A stretch of DNA of 64,000 nt from contig JAHDXO010000044.1 of assembly GCA_023382975.1 (NCBI GenBank), positions 1-64,000 on the forward strand, read 5' to 3'. This DNA is from Pirellulaceae bacterium. GTDB lineage: Bacteria > Planctomycetota > Planctomycetia > Pirellulales > Pirellulaceae. The position numbers and the translations under genes were made by a program. The notes under the pieces were generated by a model. It saw nothing but the letters and a program-made list of their open reading frames with translations, did not search any database and had not been told where the DNA came from. Shown here piece after piece: positions 1,374 to 22,294 of the stretch (positions within the stretch are counted from its first letter, which is position 1; each line of letters begins with the position of its first letter).

Positions 1374-2083
1374 CGGGGCAACTTCTGGACTTTCCCTCCG
1401 AGGTTTGGACCGGTTCGTCGGACGATTCTTCGAGCGAGCTGGGCATCATCCCGCCGAATCCGGGAATGGGATCTCAGCGGTGGCTGTCCCAGCGAACGTC
1501 GGTGGTTTTCACGGATGCAGTCAGCGGCGAACCGAATCGCAGCCTTGGCGTTGTTGTACTCGTTGGCCGGGGATCGGGAAGCACCCGCGGACGAGTTTTC
1601 GAATCGTCCGTGTTGCGGGTTGCGATAGGAAAATGAGGACAGAAAGATGGTGAACGGGCGGGGGGACACTTCTGCCATCAAGGCTCTTGACGTGCTTCAT
1701 CGGACTTTGCGGCGGACGCTGGGTGCTGCGTGCGTTGCTCGTTCGGACGATTCGCCATGAAGAGGCGCAGGGCAGCCGGTGGGCGACGGCGGCCGGTTGC
1801 TGAATTGCGGAGATCGCGGGAGACCTGCGGTCGGCGGGGACGGCGGGGTGGAGAGCCGCGCCGAGCGTGTCGCCGATTTCAACCGTTCGCAATTCCGCCT
1901 GCAACGAGCCCTCGGTTGGCCCGTCGCCCCCCACCGCTCGCCAGCCGACGACCAAGCCTTCGCCGACGAAACCTCCACTTGGTGGTAAACCCGGTGGGCT
2001 TACGCCACACCGCTCGCCAGGAAAAAGCATTCGCCGACGAAACGTCAACTTAGTGGCTCGCGGGCGCCGAACGCGAGTCGCCC
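1374..2083. other. Gene-free stretch with a ~75-bp direct repeat
   Basis: No open frame here has protein-like composition or a ribosome site. Two direct repeats are visible: CCACCGCTCGCCAG followed by TTCGCCGACGAAAC.TC.ACTT.GTGG, ending at 1985 and again at 2056, about 71 bases apart. The second copy runs directly into the hairpin at 2057-2077. Confidence 0.6.
2057..2077. repeat. Small hairpin, CTCGCG/CGCGAG stem
   Basis: Stem CTCGCG (2057-2062) and CGCGAG (2072-2077) around GGCGCCGAA. The same hairpin with a compensated outer base pair (GTCGCG/CGCGAC) is at 8810-8830; both follow an AGTGG sequence. Confidence 0.6.
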
Positions 2084-2303
2084 CCGCCGAGCTTGCTCGG
2101 TGGTGCGGTGATTTTGCACTAGAGGGCAAAATCTGTACGTCTTCCGCTCCCCGCCGAGCTTGCTCGGTGGAAGCCGTGATTGAAGCTTCGCGCGTGAGCA
2201 TGACCGAATCATGCGCTCCACCGAGCGAGCTCGGCGGGGGCGAGGCTTCTCGCGATTCCGAGATTTAGTGTAGAATCGCCGTCCCACCGAGCAAGCTCGG
2301 CGG
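2084..2303. repeat. 220-bp imperfect palindromic element, copy 1
   Basis: Four 20-bp units: CCGCCGAGCTTGCTCGGTGG at 2084-2103 and 2151-2170, and its inverted form at 2218-2237 (one change) and 2284-2303. The DNA between the outer and inner units is also an imperfect inverted repeat, so the whole element can fold on itself. To the right, CCAACTTCAAAG (2312-2323) matches the terminal repeat of the 21-kb copy; the matching left end is absent, so this copy is truncated or fused to the hairpin repeat at 2057-2077. Confidence 0.85.
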
Positions 2304-2418
2304 AGACGCGGCCAACTTCAAAGTAGCCTCTCTTCCGGCCGGCCTTGGTCCCTTGAAGGCTCTCTCGGTTCGCAACCGTCTTCCCCGACGATCACCACAC
2401 GATCTGATCCATCGTTAG

Positions 2419-3216: not shown

Positions 3217-3340
3217 CTTTGAAGTTGCGCGTGGCCGGGTTCGCGAGAATTCGTTGGTGTTTCGCGGGGGACGGCCAACAATCCAGAGTCCGAATTCTCA
3301 CGAATTCGGCTACTCCCCGTCGAGAAGCGCAACTTCAACG
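3217..3340. mobile_element. 124-bp MITE-like element with 12-bp terminal inverted repeats
   Basis: Left end CTTTGAAGTTGC (3217-3228), right end GCAACTTCAACG (3329-3340), 11 of 12 complementary, and essentially the ends of the element at 21167-21440. Flanking octamers ACCGAAGA (3209-3216) and AGTGAAGA (3341-3348) agree at 6 of 8 positions, consistent with a decayed target duplication. The interior differs from the 21-kb copy and holds the palindrome at 3290-3313. Confidence 0.6.
3290..3313. repeat. REP-like palindrome, copy 1
   Basis: Core CCGAATTCTCACGAATTCGG (3290-3309) followed by CTAC. It is identical to 39512-39535, which lies next to a REP-type transposase fragment; a diverged form is at 13268-13288. 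Confidence 0.7.
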
Positions 3341-18232: not shown

Positions 18233-19495
18233 ATGCAAACCAAAACCGTCCCGCGAGCATTGCTTGCTGCGCTGACTGCCGCACTGGTTGCCCTCCCGGG
18301 CCTTCGCTCGGGCCGCGCGGATGATCCCATGGCGAGCTTCGACCGGATGGCGACTCGTTTTCTGGCCGAGCACGGTGTGCCGGGGATGGCGCTGGCCGTC
18401 ACCGATGGGAGCCGGCTGGTGTACGCCCGCGGCTTCGGGCTCGCCGACACCTCGTCCGAAGAACCGGTCACGCCCACCAGTCTGTTCCGGATCGCCAGCG
18501 TGTCCAAGCCGATCACGGCTATCGCGGCCCTACAACTGGTCCAGGACAAGCGTCTGCGGTTGGACGACCGAGTCGTCGAGATCGTGCCGATCGAGCCCTT
18601 CGTGCCGGACGGGGCATCGCGGGACGCTCGCTGGAACTCGGTCACCGTCCGTCACCTGCTGGAGCATCGCGGCGGCTGGGACCGCGACCAGTCGTTCGAT
18701 CCGATGTTCCAAGCGGTTCGTTGCGCCAACGCGTTGGGCGTCGAGCCGCCGGCCGAACCCGCGCACATCATCCGCTGGATGCTGGGGCAACCGCTCGATT
18801 TCGAGCCCGGCGAGCGTTACGCCTATTCGAATTTCGGCTACTGTTTGATGGGTCGCGCGATCGAGGCGGCAGCCGGCCAGGATTACGAGTCCTACGTCAA
18901 GGAGCACGTCCTGGCGCCGCTGGGCATCCGGTCGATGCGGATCGGAAGTACGCGCTCCGACCAGCGGGCACCGAACGAAGTCTGTTACTACCATCCGGGC
19001 ACAGGCCGATCCGTCTTTGCCGACGATTTGAACGAACCCTGCCCGCATCCCTACGGTGCGTGGCATCTGGAGGCGATGGACGCGCACGGTGGTTGGATCG
19101 CCTCGGCGGTGGATCTCGCTCGATTGGCCGTGGCCTTGGATCATTCAGACCGCTGCAAGATCTTGTCCGACGAGAGCATTCGCACGATGTACGGCAGACC
19201 GGGCGGTCGCGTCGAGACGGACCCGGACGGCACACCGTCGCCCGTGTACTACTCGTGCGGCTGGTCGAACCGAATCGTCGCCGAAGGGAAATTCAATCGC
19301 TGGCACGCCGGCTCGCTGCCCGGCACTACCGCCCTGCTGGTCCGCCGCCACGACGGACGCAACTGGGCGGTGCTGTGCAACGCCAGCATCGGCAAGGACG
19401 GCATCTCGCTGGTCCGAGCCGTCGATCCGCTTATTCACGCCGCAGCAAGGGAGGTATCATCATGGCCCGAACACGACTTGTTCGACAACTTCTGA
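18233..19495 (+). CDS. Secreted serine hydrolase, beta-lactamase/penicillin-binding-like, 420 aa
   Basis: Class C beta-lactamase fold. Signal peptide in residues 1-30. SVSK at 89-92 gives the nucleophile Ser and the Lys, YSN near 204 (ERYAYSNFGYCLMG) the second element, and HAGSLPGT near 360 the HxG element that replaces KTG. Members are usually esterases or peptidases rather than true beta-lactamases. An upstream ATG at 18209 is possible, but the signal peptide begins at 18233. The 3' end overlaps the next gene by 34 bases, so the two are translationally linked. It diverges from the isomerase-like gene with 113 bases between. Confidence 0.85.
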   Translation: MQTKTVPRALLAALTAALVALPGLRSGRADDPMASFDRMATRFLAEHGVPGMALAVTDGSRLVYARGFGLADTSSEEPVTPTSLFRIASVSKPITAIAALQLVQDKRLRLDDRVVEIVPIEPFVPDGASRDARWNSVTVRHLLEHRGGWDRDQSFDPMFQAVRCANALGVEPPAEPAHIIRWMLGQPLDFEPGERYAYSNFGYCLMGRAIEAAAGQDYESYVKEHVLAPLGIRSMRIGSTRSDQRAPNEVCYYHPGTGRSVFADDLNEPCPHPYGAWHLEAMDAHGGWIASAVDLARLAVALDHSDRCKILSDESIRTMYGRPGGRVETDPDGTPSPVYYSCGWSNRIVAEGKFNRWHAGSLPGTTALLVRRHDGRNWAVLCNASIGKDGISLVRAVDPLIHAAAREVSSWPEHDLFDNF

Positions 19496-21228
19496 AAGAC
19501 GGGAGACTCCATTCCCGCGATCCCCGCGCAACCGTGCTTGCCGTCTTGACGGTGCTGGCGATCGGGGGGGCCGTCCTGGAAGCGGGCGAGCCCTCCCCGG
19601 CGGCGCGCGAGGTGGCTGAGCGGATTCGGCACGAGGCGTTGCTGCCGCCGCGCGGGCCGGCGGGCCGACCGCTGCCGCTGCTGGGCCACTGGAACATGGG
19701 CGGCCAAGGCCAGGGGTGGACGCCGCAGTATCAGTTGGAACTGCTGGACCAGGGCACGCCGCTGCTGCCCTGGTTCGGCTGGCCGCAGGGCGATCCGGAC
19801 AAGGACGAGAAAGCGGCGCAGCGATTTCGCGACTACTACGAGGCATGGATCACCCGCTGCCGCCAACTGCGACTGCCGATCTCGTTCCGCGGCACGCAGT
19901 GGGAAGCGGTCCTGGTGGGCAAGGAGTATCGGCAACTGCCGCCGGAAGAGTGCCCGGCGGTGATCACTCCCGAAGGCCAAGCGATCATCAAACTCTGCCC
20001 GTTCGGCCCCATCGATAAATGGCGTGACCCGGCCGCGGTCTACGTCGACACGCCGGCGATGAAGTTGCTGCAACAGTGGTATCCCGATCCGCCGCTCGTG
20101 CTGTTCGTGTCGAACAACGAAGCGCCGGACCTCCGCTGGCACCAGGCCGAGACGCTGTCGCAGCGATACCGGGACCGCTTCGGCACCGGCCGGTCCGACG
20201 AATTTAAGCGGCAGGTGGTCGCCCGCGGATGGATGGAACGCTATCCGGTGATGTTCCAGGCCATGCGCGACGCGCTGGTCAGCGACGCATGGAAGAAGAA
20301 CGTCCGTTTTGTCGGCTACGGCGCCTTCGGGCCATCGCATTTCGGACGCTGGGACGGCTGGAAGGAATACTCGCTGATCACGGACCAATGGACCAGTCCG
20401 GATTGGCACATTTGGGACGGAGGCAGCCCGTCGTACTACACGCACAACTGGTGCCCGAACCGCGATCATTGGGTCTGGTCGACGCAGGTCGAGTCGATGA
20501 ACTGGATCTTTCAATTGGACGAAGCGTGGCGGGTGAATCCGAACTTCTGGTGGGAAGTCTCGATCTGGGACGGCAACCAGTCCTGGAAGCCCAACGATCC
20601 GTTCGACCCCAAGCTGTTGGCCAATTCGAAAGCCTGCCAATACATGAACGACGGGCAGACGTACACGCCCGAGCGTTACCGCGGCTGGGTCCAGTTCGGC
20701 ATGTGGCTGTTGCGTCCGCGCGTGGTGCGCGAGTTCCGCGGCAGCACGGTGCCGCGCGAACCGTGGCGAGCTTATTTCGACGAATTGATCGCCACCGTCA
20801 AACTCGTCCACTCGGACGATACGCTGGCCGAATTCTGGAGGCACGGAGAATTGGTGGCCAACCCAAGCCACGAGCATCCGTTCCAGGATGACATTCCCGA
20901 AAAGTACCACGAAACGCAACGTTGGTTCCTGCTGGACACCGACCTGGACGCGCCGCGACCGTGGGACCGGCAGACGGATATTCCCGTGTTCAGTCTGGCG
21001 CTGGTCCGCGGGACGGCCGGATCGCGTCAGTGGCTACTGTATGCCCACTCGCCGCTCGCAGACCGCTCGAACGTCGCCGTGACGATCCCCGAATTCGGAG
21101 CACTGACCGTTGACGTCCCGCGAGCCGGAGCGTTTTACGTGGTTGAAGAAAGTGGCCGACGAGTGACTTTGAAGTTGCACATTTCGTCCGGCTTCGCCCC
21201 CCGCCGAGCTTGCTCGGTGGTGCGGTGA
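19462..21228 (+). CDS. Secreted protein of unknown function, 588 aa, C-terminus altered by a repeat insertion
   Basis: The start at 19462 follows AGGGAGG and lies inside the end of the preceding gene. A basic N-terminus and ATVLAVLTVLAIGGAVLEAG look like a signal peptide. The body is rich in Trp and Tyr (LGHWNMGGQGQGW, TPLLPWFGWPQGDPD, VLFVSNNEAPDLRW, WTSPDWHIWDGGSPSYY) and reads like a sugar-active TIM barrel, with NNE a possible catalytic site, but I cannot name a family. The last ~20 codons (from 21167) lie in a 274-bp mobile repeat; without it the frame would run GRRVTGR and stop at 21457-21459. So the native protein was about 14 residues shorter. Confidence 0.75.
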   Translation: MARTRLVRQLLKDGRLHSRDPRATVLAVLTVLAIGGAVLEAGEPSPAAREVAERIRHEALLPPRGPAGRPLPLLGHWNMGGQGQGWTPQYQLELLDQGTPLLPWFGWPQGDPDKDEKAAQRFRDYYEAWITRCRQLRLPISFRGTQWEAVLVGKEYRQLPPEECPAVITPEGQAIIKLCPFGPIDKWRDPAAVYVDTPAMKLLQQWYPDPPLVLFVSNNEAPDLRWHQAETLSQRYRDRFGTGRSDEFKRQVVARGWMERYPVMFQAMRDALVSDAWKKNVRFVGYGAFGPSHFGRWDGWKEYSLITDQWTSPDWHIWDGGSPSYYTHNWCPNRDHWVWSTQVESMNWIFQLDEAWRVNPNFWWEVSIWDGNQSWKPNDPFDPKLLANSKACQYMNDGQTYTPERYRGWVQFGMWLLRPRVVREFRGSTVPREPWRAYFDELIATVKLVHSDDTLAEFWRHGELVANPSHEHPFQDDIPEKYHETQRWFLLDTDLDAPRPWDRQTDIPVFSLALVRGTAGSRQWLLYAHSPLADRSNVAVTIPEFGALTVDVPRAGAFYVVEESGRRVTLKLHISSGFAPRRACSVVR

Positions 21229-21440
21229 TTTTGCACTATAAGGCAAATCTCAACGTTTCTTGCTCCCCGCCGAGCTTGCTCGGTGGAAGCAATGATTGGA
21301 GCTTTGCGAGTGAGAGTGATTGAATCATGCGCTCCACCGAGCAAGCTCGGCGGGGGCGGGGCTTCTCGGAATTCCTCGATTTAGTGCAGAATCGTCGTTC
21401 CACCGAGCAAGCTCGGCGGAGACGATGCGCAACTTCAAAG
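21167..21440. mobile_element. 274-bp MITE-like element with 12-bp inverted ends and 8-bp target duplication
   Basis: Ends CTTTGAAGTTGC (21167-21178) and GCAACTTCAAAG (21429-21440) are perfect inverted repeats. Flanking octamers ACGAGTGA (21159-21166) and ACGAGTAA (21441-21448) agree at 7 of 8 positions. The interior is the 219-bp palindromic element with four 20-bp units (21201-21220, 21267-21286, 21334-21353, 21400-21419), also found at 2084-2303. It encodes no protein, so it would need a transposase in trans. Confidence 0.8.
21201..21419. repeat. 219-bp imperfect palindromic element, copy 2
   Basis: CCGCCGAGCTTGCTCGGTGG occurs twice direct and twice inverted, all four perfect here, nested symmetrically. 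It supplies the stop codon (21226-21228) of the preceding gene. Confidence 0.85.
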
Positions 21441-21496
21441 ACGAGTAACGGGGCGGTAGGGTGGGCGGCAGGATTTGTAGGCGAGGCGTTGCGAGC

Positions 21497-22294
21497 ATGT
21501 TACCGATCGTTATCGACCGTATCGACGATTCGCGGCTGGATGTATTCCGCGAACTGAAGGCGCCGCGCGAGCCGCGTTTTCGGCCGCTGTTCGTCGTCGA
21601 AGGGTTGCTGGTTACCGAGCGATTGTTGGCCAGCCGGTTCGAGGTCGAGGCGGTGTTGACCGAGCCGCGCTTCGTCGATCGTCTGTCGGCCCAACTCGAC
21701 GATGCCACCGTGCTGTACGTGCTGCCTCGCGACCGCATTCAACAATTGGCGGGATTCAATTTCCACCGCGGCGTGCTGGGTTGCGGCCGGCGACCGGCGT
21801 TACCCGCGCTGGTCGACCTGGTGCCCGCCGCCCCGGCCCCTGTCACGTTGGCCGTTTGCGTCGGCATTCAGGATCCGGAGAACCTGGGAGGCATCCTGCG
21901 CAGCAGCGCGGCGTTGGGCATCCAGGCGGTCGTGCTGGGGCCGAATTGCGCCGATCCGTACTCGCGTCGCGTCGCGCGGACCTCGATGGGCGCCAACTTC
22001 CGCGTTCCCGTTGCGGAACCGCAGGATCTTGGCCGCGAATTGGCCGAACTGCGCGACCGGCACGGAGTCCGGCTGATCGCCACCGTGCTCGATCCGCGCG
22101 CGGATCGGCTGGACGAGGCCGAGCGTCCCGCCCGAGTCGCCTTGCTGTTCGGCAGCGAGGGTTGGGGGCTGGACGAGTGGTGGACCGCGCTGTGCGATCA
22201 GCGAGTCACGATCCCGATGCAACCCGGCGTCGATTCCCTGAACGCCAGCGTCGCCGCCGGGATCTTCCTGTACACCTACCGCCGCACCGACTGA
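21497..22294 (+). CDS. SpoU/TrmH-family RNA 2'-O-methyltransferase, 265 aa
   Basis: AdoMet-dependent methyltransferase with a trefoil knot. An N-terminal substrate-binding part (VEGLLVTERLLASRFEVEAVL) is followed by the three SpoU motifs: VGIQDPENLGGILRSSAALG (motif 1), LLFGSEGWGLDE (motif 2) and IPMQPGVDSLNASVAAGIFLY (motif 3). Targets of the family are tRNA Gm18 or 23S rRNA positions; this one cannot be placed further. ATG at 21497 has only a weak GCGAGG site upstream. The mobile element ends 57 bases before the start and may have brought or removed promoter sequence. Confidence 0.9.
   Translation: MLPIVIDRIDDSRLDVFRELKAPREPRFRPLFVVEGLLVTERLLASRFEVEAVLTEPRFVDRLSAQLDDATVLYVLPRDRIQQLAGFNFHRGVLGCGRRPALPALVDLVPAAPAPVTLAVCVGIQDPENLGGILRSSAALGIQAVVLGPNCADPYSRRVARTSMGANFRVPVAEPQDLGRELAELRDRHGVRLIATVLDPRADRLDEAERPARVALLFGSEGWGLDEWWTALCDQRVTIPMQPGVDSLNASVAAGIFLYTYRRTD

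Follow-up and report, generated by a model that had tools for sequence, protein, structure and literature searches.

Anatomy of the element

The window, a 64,000-nt stretch from a Pirellulaceae bacterium, carries at 21159-21448 a mobile element of 274 bp (21167-21440, by direct reading of the sequence) together with its flanking target duplications, lying across the end of a gene for a 588-aa protein and upstream of a gene for an RNA methyltransferase. The features of the locus are listed by coordinates, strand and identity.

19462..21228, plus strand: host gene, 588 aa; the element supplies its stop codon and the 19 codons preceding it
21159..21166, unstranded: left target duplication ACGAGTGA, 7/8 identical to the right copy
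21167..21178, plus strand: left terminal inverted repeat CTTTGAAGTTGC, perfect over 12 bp and mismatched once over 16 bp (to 21182)
21197..21225, minus strand: REP-type palindrome 1 (core 21204-21217)
21263..21291, minus strand: REP-type palindrome 2 (core 21270-21283)
21330..21358, plus strand: REP-type palindrome 3 (core 21337-21350)
21396..21424, plus strand: REP-type palindrome 4 (core 21403-21416)
21429..21440, minus strand: right terminal inverted repeat GCAACTTCAAAG
21441..21448, unstranded: right target duplication ACGAGTAA, by direct reading
21461..22294, plus strand: downstream gene, SpoU-type RNA methyltransferase (PF00588, 133 bits)

The first-pass annotation had described a MITE with 12-bp perfect terminal repeats and an 8-bp target duplication. 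That reading is supported: direct reading confirms the 12-bp repeats, which over 16 bp differ at a single position, the family as a whole duplicates 8 bp of target, and in other genera a DDE transposase gene lies between ends of this kind; the flanks hold as a duplication in their length, and their two copies, matching at 7/8 positions, are imperfect. The element has the terminal inverted repeats, the target duplication and the many dispersed copies of a MITE and is without coding capacity, and ends of the CTTTGAAGTTGC type bound at least 15 other elements in the window's genome.

The four interior palindromes share the core CCGAGC-NN-GCTCGG, are spaced by 66, 67 and 66 bp, and lie two in each orientation. 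A single strand of the 274 bp was predicted to fold at -97.4 kcal/mol, against -48.3 ± 3.8 for shuffled sequences (z -13.1). A CRISPR-like array, suggested by the 66-67 bp repeat spacing, was rejected, the units being palindromes in both orientations and the copies dispersed. Rfam gave no match above threshold in the window. A scan of 21000-21600 for terminator-like and promoter-like sites came back empty, and we therefore claim no regulatory role.

The rewritten end of the host gene

The 588-aa frame runs ...GGC CGA CGA GTG ACT TTG..., crosses the left end and palindrome 1, meets a TGA at 21226-21228, and closes in ...GAFYVVEESGRRVTLKLHISSGFAPRRACSVVR and stop; this TGA falls inside the element, in agreement with the earlier claim that the present tail and stop codon come from the repeat. 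The flanks were joined by script after removal of the element and one duplication copy, giving a frame that ends in ...GAFYVVEESGRRVTGR and stop and reproducing the proposed restoration to ...GRRVTGR; the variable codon encodes valine from either duplication copy (GTG or GTA), and the ending is the same both ways. The terminal GR would accordingly have been replaced by 19 element-encoded residues, LKLHISSGFAPRRACSVVR.

The host protein matched no family in Pfam or NCBIfam at E 0.1, and its relatives, at 55-73% identity, are from planctomycete MAGs; it was matched in 5 of the 60 relatives searched, its own genome counted. Eleven homologues were compared (8 from MAGs and 3 from further genomes, with L087 and L274, a single locus, counted once), and their tails after a conserved G-x-F-Y are 13, 13, 14, 14, 15, 17, 18, 21, 21, 23 and 44 residues long (median 17, with three values hand-counted on the tail sequences), none of the 11 containing element sequence. 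The present tail, at 29 residues, is longer than 10 of the 11. Longer, unrelated C-termini in element-free relatives had been named as the observation that would count against the reconstruction: the homologues have short, variable, element-free tails, and the reconstructed tail of 12 residues falls slightly under their 13-44 range.

A true empty site was not found among the homologues searched (closest ~73% identical), the closest, at ~70-73% identity, being too distant to provide a site-exact empty allele. The ancestral allele that the first-pass annotation had called recoverable can thus be reconstructed as GRRVTGR; because the C-terminal tail is not conserved, we infer this ending and do not read it from a relative. 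For the same reason the changed protein end is probably mild in effect or tolerated.

Copies of the family in the window, the genome and its congeners

BLAST with the element returned 113 matching stretches in the 10.46-Mb genome, the majority bare palindrome arrays and the minority with CTTTGAAG ends. Within the window, the following were recorded.

2081..2323, plus strand: family 1 copy, right end GGCCAACTTCAAAG kept, left end lost to another repeat
3217..3340, plus strand: family 2 element, same ends, other REP pair (GTAG-CCGAATTC type), flanks ACCGAAGA and AGTGAAGA matching at 6/8

Family 2, recovered by an end-pattern search, is ~124 bp long and has the same ends around an inverted pair, GTAG-CCGAATTC-GTGA-GAATTCGG. 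In the congeners G001-G003, the same ends enclose 1-4 palindromes, the shortest elements being 69-76 bp. At L147:322-637 (G002), another repeat is nested in an element whose flanks still read ACGCGAGT on both sides. A gene end shared by L142 (G003) and L146 (G002) carries, at the same site, elements differing in internal make-up. Elsewhere, L201:127-1101 (G218) holds two identical 247-bp elements with the same flanks, 728 bp apart, apparently a tandem duplication of the element with neighbouring sequence.

Target duplication across the family

For 42 pairs of terminal inverted repeats (ends with up to 3 mismatches, at least five spurious-looking pairs kept in), 8-bp flank agreement was 0.729, against 0.355 ± 0.024 for re-paired flanks (maximum 0.438 in 2000 shuffles), and lengths 3-7 and 9-12 gave nothing comparable to length 8. 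Agreement was 8/8 in 11 pairs and 7/8 in 10, the window copy being among the latter. In a set of 93 paired elements from 33 genomes (ends with up to 2 mismatches, genomes assigned by hand, overlapping the 42-pair set and excluding loci recovered on viral contigs or through protein or transposase searches), flanks matched at a mean of 5.88/8 versus 2.79 ± 0.17 when shuffled, again at length 8 only, with 29 elements at 8/8 and 21 at 7/8. In 7 of the 93 elements the two flanks are reverse complements of each other, with 7 or 8 positions out of 8 agreeing; flanks of this kind were noted in other genera, at L185, L189, L207, L216 and the G121 pairs in L234 and L237, as if the element lay in the middle of a REP hairpin.

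Distribution of the ends and target sites

Ends of the YTTTGAAGTTGCGC form occur in many genera of the class. Allowing one mismatch, 76 of the 241 genomes searched in the family, representing 30 of 68 genera, contain CTTTGAAGTTGCGCAT; exact TTTGAAGTTGCGCAT is present in 49 of the 397 searched in the class, the reversed control giving one match each in 4 genomes. The end 13-mer (up to 1 mismatch) was counted 150+138 times in G261 (control 7+14), 105+118 times in G121 (control 13+10) and 84+77 times in G214 (control 14+17). Viral contigs gave no match to an 18-mer and 57 stretches matching a 15-mer, among which no pair had flanks agreeing at 5/8 or more.

In genera other than the window's, CTNNCGC(T/G) within palindromes of the CCTCGCTNACGCTTCGGGTT type is the site of many insertions. 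The target duplications of the window's genus (ACTGGGGT, ACCGAAGA and others) are unlike the CTNNCGCT sites used in other genera, so the local enzyme may differ. Using 60 elements with flanks matching at 6/8 or better, each element was searched for its own 20-bp target at 15/20 or better: outside the window's genus 12 of 38 contained it, 3 of 38 reaching that level in any of 30 scrambles, and within the window's genus none of 22 did. The element carries its own landing sites in G380, G198, G121 and G075; in the window's genus it does not.

A probable partner transposase

An intact transposon of 1,506 bp was found at L394:1997-3502 (G393, in a different family of the class) when 20 regions with unpaired ends were extracted. 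It is bounded by TTTTGAAGTTGCGC ends, has CGCGCAAG on both sides (8/8 duplication) and codes for a single ORF of 484 aa without frameshift. The protein matched Pfam DDE_Tnp_1 at 63.5 bits (cut-off 23) and contains a complete Y-2-R-3-E-6-K motif, YSLRWQIELFFKELK, the two D residues being assigned only by eye; against NCBIfam it missed every curated cut-off, the best match being IS701 (106.1, cut-off 150) and the best IS4 model IS4_1 (56.2, cut-off 115). No PDB sequence matched it.

As set out in the accessible text of PMC2266710, the IS4 family is defined by a complete YREK, a DDE transposase and no frameshift, IS701 by an incomplete YREK with a 4-bp duplication, and the ISPepr1 subgroup by a size of 1500-1600 bp, a 7-8 bp duplication and YT-AA-YTT ends. 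Under this definition, an IS701 identity is excluded by the complete YREK and the 8-bp duplication, and these two features with the 5'-YT ends agree with membership of L394 in the IS4 family. Among the subgroups covered there, ISPepr1 and IS50 are nearest to it in size, 5'-YT ends and duplication length; unlike ISPepr1, L394 agrees with YT-AA-YTT at YT only and so falls outside the subgroup by its ends, while fitting in size and duplication, and its target is a GC-rich palindrome, not an AT-rich site.

In G214, a second genus of the window's family, relatives of the L394 transposase were found at 67, 61 and 56% identity. The transposase match begins 32 bp after an exact end in L266, finishes beside CTTTGAAGTTGCGC in L212, and finishes beside a degenerate end in L255; L255 and L266 were PF01609 loci recognised as relatives through L394. 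An autonomous relative with the same ends, as expected for a MITE, is represented by L394 and the end-adjacent G214 genes. The search recommended by the first-pass annotation, for a transposase gene with such ends, thus succeeded in G393 and G214, and found none in the window's assembly (G000), where five DDE_Tnp_1 matches include no L394-type gene and no gene lies between paired ends.

Nor was an L394-type gene present among the DDE_Tnp_1 matches of G001-G003, a transposase in the single-ended loci of these genomes, or a transposase between ends in 400 kb of G121 and the other end loci examined before L394; the PF01609 profile, run on seven genomes, picked up no gene enclosed by two such ends. 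A multi-copy transposon could have been lost in assembly, as in G362, where the copies of a multi-copy candidate run off contig ends. A 31-residue C-terminal piece in G520, resembling the end of the L394 protein by eye only, had no match to any Pfam or NCBIfam family and only four weak ones on Streptomyces plasmids.

The REP interior and a Y1-type system

Family 1 palindromes also occur without the ends, in tandem arrays with GTAG mostly kept: the tetranucleotide is present in 29 of 49 units with no end within 330 bp and in 4 of 14 with an end, and the window copy carries TTAG or ATAG in its place. Family 2 units have GTAG in most copies (by eye). According to the available part of PMC8266576, GTAG is important for Y1 enzymes in the systems treated there, less so in some.

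In the window's assembly, a Y1-type gene on contig C36 (L031:1549-2430; Y1_Tnp 42.4 bits, cut-off 23) is flanked by family 1 REPs, and a similar REP-flanked Y1 gene, judged by eye, was seen in G018:C178 (L139). No family 2 REP was found within 1.5 kb of nine Y1 matches. Between subtypes, the two strands at the base of the stem change together (GCTTCC/GGGGAGC, CGCTCC/GGGGGCG, CGTCGTCC/GGAGACG and CGTCATCC/GGAGATG, read by eye), as would be expected for a hairpin under selection. The interior behaves like the REPs of a Y1 system and the ends like those of an IS4-type transposon. At L175 (G000:C19:94458-94802), tandem repeats of ~24 residues (AAGVSPQNKDAQSTQAAERRQHL type) lie in frame ahead of a Y1 transposase ORF.

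Origin of the element

Given the family-wide 8-bp duplication, the class-wide ends, the intact L394 transposon and its G214 relatives, the element is most likely an IS4-type MITE. With a probability of roughly three in four, it is a non-autonomous element moved in trans by an IS4-superfamily DDE transposase by way of its YTTTGAAGTTGCGC ends, with the REPs as cargo. Such a transposase would recognise the ends in trans, cut at ACGAGTRA with an 8-bp stagger and insert the element among the final codons of the 588-aa gene, whose frame would then extend across the left end and palindrome 1 to a new stop. The interior would consist of four REP-type palindromes in nested inverted order, the same repeat being free in arrays and around a Y1 (RAYT-like) gene, so that the ends would act as carrier for the REPs. 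This reading builds on the observed anatomy and 8-bp duplication, the genome-wide family, the transposase gene between such ends in another family and the REP arrays around a Y1 gene; by extension, an L394-type transposase lineage would have moved the window copy, and the REPs would derive from the Y1 system.

A DDE transposase of a different family with similar ends might mobilise the element in the window's genus, the IS4-type enzyme of other genera not being its partner. We consider this unlikely: the DDE_Tnp_1 matches of G000-G003 indeed include no L394-type gene, and the targets preferred in the window's genus are not those of the other genera, yet the ends agree at 13/14 positions or more, the duplication length is identical, and G214, in the window's own family, has an L394-type gene beside CTTTGAAGTTGCGC. 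It is more improbable still that the whole element is a large REPIN or BIME moved as single-stranded DNA by a Y1 (RAYT-like) transposase, with the terminal repeats incidental. The REP-type interior and the presence of a Y1 gene with the same REPs would suit such an origin, but the 8-bp duplications are strong, and Y1 transposition is not known to duplicate its target. Two unrelated REP types share common ends, and GTAG, to which the accessible text of PMC8266576 assigns a role, is the less often kept in units near ends, both of which argue against it. Least credible is a REP cluster grown in place by recombination, its ends and flanking repeats agreeing by chance; the imperfect duplication in the window (7/8) and the tandem expansion of REP arrays in this genome lean that way, against independent insertions at many unrelated sites and a flank agreement far above that of re-paired flanks and confined to length 8.

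Relation to known systems

Like the NEMIS, ERIC, Nezha and RUP MITEs, as far as the accessible text of PMC3733652 describes them, the IS4-type MITE favoured here is short, bounded by terminal inverted repeats, target-duplicating and non-coding, forms long hairpins and lies beside genes; unlike them, its interior is made of REP palindromes, and the same ends enclose other interiors in other genera. Its palindromes resemble the REPs, BIMEs and REPINs of RAYT/TnpA-REP systems in carrying a GTAG tag in part of the copies, in forming arrays and inverted pairs and in lying beside a Y1 gene, and REP/RAYT systems are reported in the planctomycete R. baltica; unlike REPINs as described in the available parts of these sources (PMC3116915, PMC3733652, PMC8266576), the window REPs lie between IS4-type ends with an 8-bp duplication. 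Insertion sequences can also use REPs as targets (Tobes and Pareja 2006, as cited in the accessible text of PMC3733652). The elements of other genera likewise insert into REP-like palindromes, and differ from the REP-targeting insertion sequences covered there in that, in several genera, the element itself contains the target palindrome.

MITEs, IS4 transposons, REPs and REPs as targets of insertion sequences are already known. In the literature consulted, mainly openly accessible, no account was found of REP palindromes inside an IS4-type MITE, of these ends, or of the variant seen here, a single set of IS4-type ends with differing REP palindromes across a bacterial class. A broader reading, which we regard as tentative and rather doubtful, is that IS4-type ends in Planctomycetia form an interchangeable carrier for REPs, with cargo repeatedly exchanged between lineages; in several genera the cargo would be the landing palindrome itself, element and target multiplying each other and a DDE transposon being coupled to a Y1/REP system.

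How REPs spread is still debated, because Y1 enzymes are rarely caught moving them; a DDE carrier with clear insertion scars offers a second, testable route. With more than 100 ends per strand in some genomes and occurrence in several families of the class, these ends also matter for the annotation of planctomycete genomes, and the window case shows, on a small scale and in nature, how a mobile repeat can rewrite the end of a protein.
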